In this document: in pieces, positions 37,892 through 39,378 of the stretch | How positions within the stretch are numbered: position 1 is the first letter of the stretch | Layout of the letters: every line of letters starts with the position of its first letter | Origin: Bacteroidota bacterium | Lineage (GTDB): Bacteria > Bacteroidota > JABWAT01 | Length of the DNA stretch: 59,115 nucleotides | NCBI GenBank assembly: GCA_017303995.1 | Contig: JAFLBE010000026.1 | Coordinates: 1 to 59,115, forward strand | Direction of reading: 5' to 3' | Notes under the pieces: model-generated | Database searches by the model: none | What the model saw: only the letters and a program-made list of their open reading frames with translations | Told to the model about the DNA's origin: nothing | Program-made: the position numbers and the translations under genes

Positions 37892-37982
37892 GGAGGGGTG
37901 GCCGAGAGGCTTAAGGCAACGGTTTGCTAAACCGTCGTAGTGTTGTAAAGCGCTACCGAGAGTTCGAATCTCTCCCCCTCCG
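37892..37982 (+). tRNA. tRNA-Ser (anticodon GCU)
   Basis: A class II tRNA folds with acceptor stem GGAGGGG / CCCCTCC, anticodon stem CGGTT-like with loop anticodon GCT, a long variable arm (about 37938-37956), and T-arm GAGAGTTCGAATCTCTC. CCA is not encoded. Its 3' end from 37951 or 37966 onward is copied downstream at 38284 and 38358-38398, which marks it as the target of the adjacent GIY-YIG unit. Confidence 0.94.
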
Positions 37983-38006
37983 CTAAAAAGCCAGTTATCC
38001 GACTGG
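37966..38006 (+). repeat. 41-bp direct repeat, copy 1 (tRNA-Ser 3' end plus terminator stem)
   Basis: The 41 bases covering the T-arm 3' side, acceptor 3' strand and terminator stem are identical to 38358-38398. The GIY-YIG gene lies between the two copies. The layout resembles attL/attR sites of elements that enter at tRNA 3' ends. Confidence 0.92.
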
Positions 38007-38014
38007 CTTTTTTT
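37985..38014 (+). terminator. Terminator after tRNA-Ser(GCU)
   Basis: An AAAAAGCCAGT / ACTGGCTTTTT hairpin with a 6-base loop and a T run starts three bases after the tRNA. It is part of the duplicated segment, so a second, slightly changed copy follows the GIY-YIG unit. Confidence 0.9.
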
Positions 38015-38033
38015 ATAATCCCGGGAAAATAGT

Positions 38034-38279
38034 ATGTTTTTTGTTTATATCCTGAAAAGCGAGAGTTCAGGCAAATTTTATTACGGCAGTTCTGAAAACC
38101 CAGATTTACGTTTAATAAATGAGCACAACAAGGGAAAGGTTAGAGCAACCAAATCTGGATTGCCCTGGATTTTGATTTATCAGGAAGAATTTGCAACCCG
38201 GGGCGAAGCATATCAACGTGAACACTATTTTAAAACATGGGCAGGAAGGCGTTGGTTGAAATCAAAAGACATTACATGA
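38034..38279 (+). CDS. Small GIY-YIG nuclease-domain protein
   Basis: The 81-residue protein is a bare GIY-YIG domain. FVYILKS and FYYGSS supply the paired beta strands with the conserved tyrosines, RLINEHN supplies the catalytic arginine helix, and GEAYQREHYFKTW carries the conserved glutamate region. Single-domain members (URI/UPF0213 group) are common in Bacteroidota relatives and have no settled role. The GGGA before the ATG is a modest ribosome-binding site. It lies inside a 41-bp direct repeat made from the tRNA-Ser 3' end, which suggests that it acts on that target. Confidence 0.9.
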   Translation: MFFVYILKSESSGKFYYGSSENPDLRLINEHNKGKVRATKSGLPWILIYQEEFATRGEAYQREHYFKTWAGRRWLKSKDIT

Positions 38280-38283
38280 CCAA

Positions 38284-38374
38284 CGCTACCGAGGAGTTCT
38301 CCAAGGCCCCGCTTTGCGGGACCGCGGACCCGTCGTCAGCCATATGACTGACTCGGGGAATCTCTCCCCCTCCG
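38284..38374 (+). pseudogene. Partial, interrupted copy of the tRNA-Ser(GCU) 3' half
   Basis: The copy starts with CGCTACCGAG and ends with the acceptor 3' strand, but the T-arm is interrupted by about 60 bases that include a CCCCGC-TTT-GCGGG hairpin and a second stem, CCCG..GTCAG / CTGAC.CGGG. There is no 5' half, so no functional tRNA can be made from it. Confidence 0.75.
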
Positions 38375-38398
38375 CTAAAAAGCCAGTTATCCGACTGG
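38358..38398 (+). repeat. 41-bp direct repeat, copy 2
   Basis: This segment is identical over 41 bases to 37966-38006 and lies downstream of the GIY-YIG gene. The two copies diverge immediately after ACTGG, where copy 1 continues CTTT and copy 2 continues TTTT. Confidence 0.92.
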
Positions 38399-38407
38399 TT
38401 TTTTTTT
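38377..38407 (+). terminator. Terminator after the GIY-YIG unit (copied stem)
   Basis: The copied AAAAAGCCAGT stem is followed by ACTGG and a run of nine or more Ts. One G-C pair of copy 1 has become G-T, so it is slightly weaker but still terminator-like. Confidence 0.75.
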
Positions 38408-38478: not shown

Positions 38479-39378
38479 ATGGCATTTTTGGTTGATGATT
38501 ATCAAACACCTGCAGGGAACCAGGTTGAAGACCTGCAAAAAAACCGTTTACGGTTTCTTGTAAAAAAACCTCAGGATTTCCTTTCCGAACTTTCTGTTCT
38601 GAATCCGCTTCAACTCAAAGAAGTTCAGGAATATCTTTGGGATTGTATCATGGAGGAATCTACAAAGAAAAACCTTCATGTAACACGTTCTGATATTATT
38701 TCAAGGTTTGAACCCACGACAAATTACCAGTACCGGGCTGGTTGCAAAGAGCCTTTAGGATATTGTACACTCAATATGTGTATCAAACTTGACCCTAAAT
38801 GTTCAATCAACCGGCTAAGGGGAATGATTGAAATTCTCAGAAAAATTTTAGCCGACATATATAAAGCAGAAGATCTCGACCGTCGGATTTCGGAACTTGA
38901 AGTCAGTTCAAGAAAAATTCCGGTTGCTACCCCAATTATAGATTCAAAAGAAGGGGAGCAAACCCACAAAGGACATTCAGTAACCCACACTCTGAAATCA
39001 AAAATAAAAAATCTCAGAGAAATTTTATTTTCGATCATTGAGTTAGATGGTGCCGAAACTGTTTGTTTAATGGATTCCCATGCTAAAATTGTGGAACTTG
39101 TCAGCAATCAGAAAATGAACAGCAGTTCCTTCAGCAAACAAATATCAGAATTGGTAAAATACTACCAGAAACTGCTTCCAAAATTGAAAGCTGAAAGTAT
39201 TCAAACTGTTACAAATGAATATTACCAGGGATTGATGGTCATTCATTTATTGAACCATGATTTGTTTTTGATGGTGATCAGCCGAACAACTGATGTGCCG
39301 GCTAAAACACTCAAACGGGTGGTTAGAATATCGGAAGAACTGAATGAGCTTTTTGACAATACGTTAAAGGAAAAATAG
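38479..39378 (+). CDS. Unknown protein with C-terminal roadblock/LC7-like domain
   Basis: The 299-residue soluble protein has an N-terminal helical region with five cysteines spaced through CKEPLGYCTLNMCIKLDPKC and an upstream DCIMEES, a polar linker (about 148-170), and a C-terminal domain (about 180-295). The C-terminal pattern (IIELDGAETVCLMDSHAKIVELVS ... YYQGLMVIHLLNHDLFLMVISR) resembles roadblock/LC7 domains that bind small Ras-like GTPases such as MglA. No such GTPase is encoded in the window. It sits alone between the GIY-YIG unit and tmRNA, 8 bases before the latter. The function is not assigned. Confidence 0.75.
   Translation: MAFLVDDYQTPAGNQVEDLQKNRLRFLVKKPQDFLSELSVLNPLQLKEVQEYLWDCIMEESTKKNLHVTRSDIISRFEPTTNYQYRAGCKEPLGYCTLNMCIKLDPKCSINRLRGMIEILRKILADIYKAEDLDRRISELEVSSRKIPVATPIIDSKEGEQTHKGHSVTHTLKSKIKNLREILFSIIELDGAETVCLMDSHAKIVELVSNQKMNSSSFSKQISELVKYYQKLLPKLKAESIQTVTNEYYQGLMVIHLLNHDLFLMVISRTTDVPAKTLKRVVRISEELNELFDNTLKEK

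Follow-up and report, generated by a model that had tools for sequence, protein, structure and literature searches.

We describe a small unit at a tRNA-Ser(GCU) gene of a Bacteroidota bacterium, which is probably one member of a large family of minimal homing-endonuclease cassettes specialised on tRNA-like genes; its cleavage and movement are inferred. These units share a plan: next to a bare GIY-YIG ORF, one part of the host tRNA has been duplicated in such a way that a whole tRNA is retained on one side, and the leftover fragment is broken by short palindromes. The stretch of DNA analysed, 59,115 nucleotides in length, is called the window below.

The tRNA-Ser(GCU) locus

The locus comprises the following features.

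37892..37983, + strand: intact tRNA-Ser(GCU), the host gene (ARAGORN and Rfam)
37966..38357, + strand: inserted unit of 392 bp as defined by the repeat register (repeat spacing 392), containing tRNA tail, terminator, ORF, tRNA fragment and hairpins; missing at the counterpart locus of genome G002
37966..38014, + strand: copy 1 of the tRNA 3' tail with its intrinsic terminator
38034..38279, + strand: ORF of the 81-aa GIY-YIG nuclease, a bare domain (Pfam PF01541, 1.9e-15; invariant residues)
38284..38299, + strand: copied piece of the local tRNA, variable arm and 5' T-arm, CGCTACCGAGGAGTTC
38300..38357, + strand: two hairpins, 58 nt in all, inserted into the broken copy's T-loop (fold -27.1 kcal/mol)
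38358..38406, + strand: copy 2 of the tRNA 3' tail with terminator

The initial annotation had reported an 81-residue bare GIY-YIG protein beside tRNA-Ser(GCU), two identical 41-bp segments, a 10-bp match with a period of 333 and no integrase, all of which we confirmed. The 41 identical nt lie within a 49-nt tail repeat (37966-38014 versus 38358-38406, one mismatch, spacing 392), one of whose two copies is formed by the 3' portion of the tRNA gene from the T-loop onward (37966-37983). The second occurrence of the 10-mer CGCTACCGAG is at a spacing of 333, and the 59-bp gap between the two spacings corresponds to the 58-nt two-hairpin T-loop insertion in copy 2 plus one extra G; two periods had thus been noted because the hairpin insertion splits copy 2. 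Nowhere else in the 59-kb window does an exact 20-mer recur within 1 kb, so the repeat is not due to chance. It had also been proposed that the unit copied the 3' end of tRNA-Ser: the tail is indeed duplicated, but not alone, as the copied stretch also takes in some of the variable arm and the T-arm's 5' side. In this broken copy, the variable-arm/T-arm piece precedes the second tail and the T-loop is interrupted at GTTC^GAATC. The two tails differ by one base, a comparison that bears on the question of a foreign replacement tail, and copy 2 (38358..38406), colinear with the flank of the empty site, is probably the original one.

The 81-aa ORF is the sole ORF content of the 392-bp unit. An integrase/att element is ruled out, as the unit encodes no integrase. 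A search of the locus against Rfam revealed neither a known RNA family nor a group I intron at the unit, and an intron is excluded by this absence and by the intact tRNA. The 58-nt hairpin region occurs elsewhere in the genome only in one sister unit (L002), and this confinement to two sister units rules out a dispersed palindromic repeat. REP/RAYT elements combine dispersed palindromes with an HUH transposase; such an element is ruled out too, the palindromes being limited to the units in this genome and the enzyme being GIY-YIG. Between the unit and the tmRNA lies a 299-aa gene (38479-39378), found at the same position in G002 and G001, with no Pfam family above cut-off.

Residues Y5, Y16, G18, R26 and E63 of the nuclease are invariant in 31 relatives, the median dN/dS of the family is 0.14, and the protein appears to be under strong purifying selection. 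The nearest solved structures to its domain are those of UPF0213 and of SLX1, a eukaryotic repair nuclease, and the window protein has no separate DNA-binding domain. A tblastn search with this protein against 50,697 phage records found no phage homologue, and a phage origin is hence not supported.

Sister units, empty sites and arrays

A search of the source genome with the window protein returned five GIY-YIG matches, four of them 3' of a same-strand tRNA (Ser-GCU, Ser-GGA, Ala-GGC and Asp-GTC). At all four tRNA-linked loci, the tail of the tRNA recurs with its terminator past the ORF, and the tRNA fragment contains hairpins. Two extra ORF-less units (~127 bp each) are present at the Asp locus, and the Ala locus, as well as the Ser-GGA locus of G001, runs into the truncated start of another GIY-YIG ORF. 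The proteins of the Ser-GCU and Ser-GGA units share ~82% identity, and the tRNA pieces of each unit match its own local tRNA; target switches happen between similar tRNAs, as exemplified by this pair. The fifth GIY-YIG gene (L005, 1000-2300) is away from any tRNA, amid palindromic repeats (CTCGATACGCC...CCCCGAGT...ATCGAGG).

Occupancy proved to be patchy at five tRNAs among related genomes of the same genus or family. In G002, of the same genus, the locus of the window is conserved, with two tRNA-Ser genes, one terminator and the same downstream gene, and the unit is absent: this is the empty site with one tRNA end and one terminator that the initial annotation had called for in a close relative. 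When four related genomes were compared, the Ala tRNA carried a unit in G000 and G002 and none in G001; the Asn tRNA carried one in G001 and G003, was empty in G002 and had a truncated ORF start in G000; at the Asp tRNA, G000 and G001 possessed an ORF, G002 had ORF-less scars and G003 a decayed ORF; and the Ser-GGA unit was found in G000 and G001 and was absent from G002. Old units decay into ORF-less scars. Tandem arrays occur in single-contig genomes (five copies at a 450-bp period, for example), and the tRNA-proximal copy was the better preserved in 15 cases versus 2, with 10 ties.

An ORF-less scar of the head type described below, a tRNA-Ser 5' piece with a D-loop hairpin, lies upstream of tRNA-Ser(GCU) in G003 (L060), beside the very tRNA that bears the unit in the window. 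In three relatives (L061, L060 and L065), a common sequence like TTGAACTTACGA..AGTAGGTGTCAG is found 3' of tRNA-Ser genes; it is perhaps the attachment site of an unrelated integrase element.

A widespread family linked to tRNA genes

With the window protein as the sole query, a same-strand tRNA was found within ~500 nt at 21 of 28 loci of other Bacteroidota genomes, and on 14 of 24 genome contigs, many of them from Patescibacteria. The larger sample was drawn with a profile of 31 members, all chosen as tRNA-linked, which biases the later linkage counts. Of the 394 Bacteroidota genomes searched with this profile, 248 gave matches, as many as 14 in one genome and often in tandem. A profile score of 80 or more was reached by 140 distinct ORFs, of which 116 are accompanied by a same-strand tRNA no more than 600 nt away, and the tRNAs within 300 nt of relatives are on the same strand in 121 cases versus 1 on the opposite strand. 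Two units lacking a tRNA begin at or just past the 3' end of a tmRNA and have a duplicated tmRNA tail; in the tmRNA unit L081, hairpin sequence lies in the T-loop. Lower-scoring GIY-YIG matches (L005 and L024-L026) are not at tRNAs. Related units occupy a wide variety of tRNAs in phyla that are only remotely related.

Of 100 tested units, 89 carry a segment of the local tRNA once more on the far side of the ORF, as compared with 3.6% for a null made of tRNAs of other isotypes. Homologues therefore do recur beside tRNAs with a partial copy of the same tRNA, and the selfish unit originally suspected at a single tRNA is supported over a range far wider than the window locus (its movement is inferred, neither transfer nor cleavage having been observed). 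Entry at tRNA 3' ends holds for the 62 units of the tail type, in which the intact tRNA is followed by the ORF and then by a 3' part, but not for the 38 of the head type, in which a 5' part and the ORF precede the intact tRNA, and some units are at tmRNA. The hairpins in the broken copy, the tandem arrays and the entry at 5' ends and tmRNA had not been foreseen.

Short palindromes interrupt the broken copies; 34 of the 51 inserts in tail units are located in the T-loop, and 21 of the 34 in head units in the D-loop. These 85 insert sequences are all distinct, and for 76 of 79 the fold is better than that of their own shuffles; what the inserts conserve is pairing, not sequence. As the ORF of tail-type units can begin 1-10 nt past the tRNA 3' end, tRNA 3' processing could, by inference, release its mRNA.

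The same nuclease family was also observed within protein genes (L126, 1528-1746 and flanks, L037, L103, L121 and L043), where the insertions have inverted ends such as CCCCGTGAGATA/TATCTCACGGGG. A 23S_rRNA_IVP gene is interrupted by the L126 relative, the break falling between positions 47 and 48 of the profile, and the L121 unit splits an integrase-like gene. Patescibacteria-type units (L046, L047 and L051) have inverted ends CCCCCACACCA/TGGTGTGGGGG, with left ends alike in L042 and L054; L046 and L047 are exactly at gene starts, L042 and L054 in tRNA genes.

In a poorly resolved tree of 97 nuclease proteins, we counted 30 changes of tRNA isotype (60.9 in shuffles) and 49 of host family (62.4 in shuffles). 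Of 85 best matches from another host family, 56 agree in isotype, where 13.6 would be expected. Related nucleases thus retain their tRNA target while switching hosts, as expected for site-specific mobile nucleases.

Proposed mechanism and alternative explanations

We propose that the nuclease would cut its cognate tRNA gene where a chromosome lacks the unit, close to the T-loop in the tail type and to the D-loop in the head type, and that recombinational repair templated by the unit-bearing copy would then insert the unit. The anatomy demonstrates that an intact tRNA with its terminator remains, so that insertion would be nearly harmless, harmlessness itself being inferred. The other tRNA end observably persists as a fragment with T- or D-loop hairpins; these may block re-cutting, tRNA processing or recombinational loss, and their role is unknown. 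The tandem pile-up, with the best-preserved copy beside the tRNA, is a recorded pattern that may arise because the intact tRNA is still a target or because the repeats recombine.

This homing cassette, which we regard as the probable explanation, is supported by the tRNA linkage, tRNA repeats, loop inserts, empty sites, scars and decayed units, isotype tracking, dN/dS, invariant catalytic residues and array polarity, and to these may be added the targeting of tmRNA and the 23S_rRNA_IVP gene split by a relative. The units fulfil three criteria of a free-standing, SegB-like homing endonuclease (a GIY-YIG nuclease with its active site, presence or absence at one cognate site in close relatives, a lineage tied to its target), the cutting of unit-free alleles and their conversion being inferred, and one criterion of a tail-replacing ORF (a gene end present twice, the native one left behind past the ORF, in the same 89 units and in the window). 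On the opposite side, no cutting or transfer has been observed, the protein has no separate DNA-binding domain, a foreign tail has not been demonstrated and the profile is biased; these leave the explanation probable, not established. Its weak point is that the intact tRNA still holds the supposed target; self-cutting must be tolerated or avoided.

The placement of the hairpins in tRNA loops also fits a structure-guided single-strand element, in which an SLX1-like nuclease would nick tRNA- or hairpin-shaped single-stranded DNA at loops, with the hairpins as transposition substrate (compare REP/RAYT). We doubt this, while counting it possible: all 85 hairpin inserts differ yet keep their pairing, tmRNA and many isotypes are targeted, and among solved structures UPF0213 and the structure-specific SLX1 come nearest, but the isotype fidelity of related nucleases implies sequence as well as structure, the intact copy lacks hairpins and there is no strand-transfer enzyme. 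Unequal recombination or slippage might instead have duplicated a tRNA segment with its adjacent GIY-YIG gene, the extra copy then decaying without any mobility. Recombination certainly operates in the arrays, and the arrays themselves and the 41 identical bp agree with this; since it leaves unexplained the same-genus empty sites, the many isotypes and their tracking across host families, and the loop-placed hairpins, we consider it unlikely. Very unlikely, finally, is a domesticated nuclease serving the host (in tRNA processing, repair or defence, for instance) and kept by tRNAs for co-transcription: patchy occupancy and decay to scars within one genus, the many different tRNAs, the head-type units and the relatives inside protein genes stand against it, in spite of the strong purifying selection and of ORFs that often begin within 10 nt of the tRNA 3' end, where tRNA processing could release the mRNA.

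Beyond the homing cassette itself, one might speculate, as a tentative possibility, that these are cross-phylum integrase-free elements of ~300-450 bp whose bare, structure-guided GIY-YIG nuclease recognises tRNA-shaped DNA (T-arm/D-arm). The loop hairpins would then be functional, tagging the copy already used and permitting jumps from one tRNA gene to another, and the host tRNA would stay working.

Relation to known systems and significance

The UPF0213 proteins and SLX1 share the domain sequence family of the units, from which they differ in that the lower-scoring matches of this kind are not at tRNAs. Tyrosine-integrase elements at tRNA 3' ends similarly have a tRNA 3' end on both sides and keep the tRNA whole, whereas the units have no integrase, span only 392 bp in the window and insert at 5' ends too. 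On our best reading, the closest analogues would be the tail-replacing ORFs of fungal mitochondria and phage SegB. The fungal mobile ORFs provide a gene with a substitute end and leave its native end stranded, as in atp6 of Allomyces and atp6, atp9, cox2 and nad3 of Glomus (PMC3630166). They resemble the units in having an endonuclease ORF with a duplicated gene end, a host gene that stays whole and a native end stranded downstream; the units differ in that they target tRNA/tmRNA genes of bacteria, occur in both head and tail forms, have hairpins within the copy left stranded, encode a bare domain of 75-80 aa and form tandem arrays, and no foreign tail has been demonstrated for them. SegB of phages T4/T6 is a free-standing GIY-YIG homing endonuclease of the tRNA region that drives tandem tRNA amplification (PMC2988022, PMC13096335). 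It shares with the units the link of a GIY-YIG enzyme to tRNA genes and the tandem amplification of tRNA segments, but it lies within a phage tRNA intergenic region, and the accounts consulted mention neither a duplicated piece of tRNA nor hairpins in its loops. For free-standing GIY-YIG enzymes, the donor allele is reported to be cut inefficiently (PMC13096335).

We found no description of bacterial tRNA units of this kind in the open-access literature, subscription journals and preprints being outside our scope, and novelty is thus provisional. If our explanation is true, ~63% of the sampled Bacteroidota genomes (248/394), and members of several other phyla, would bear selfish genes parasitising essential tRNA genes, and the units would rank among the smallest known mobile elements encoding their own nuclease. 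This would account for many small GIY-YIG genes of such bacteria and for broken tRNA copies near tRNAs, and would provide a source of nucleases whose tRNA targets are readable from position. The strategy of homing with gene repair known from fungal mitochondria would then extend to bacterial RNA genes.
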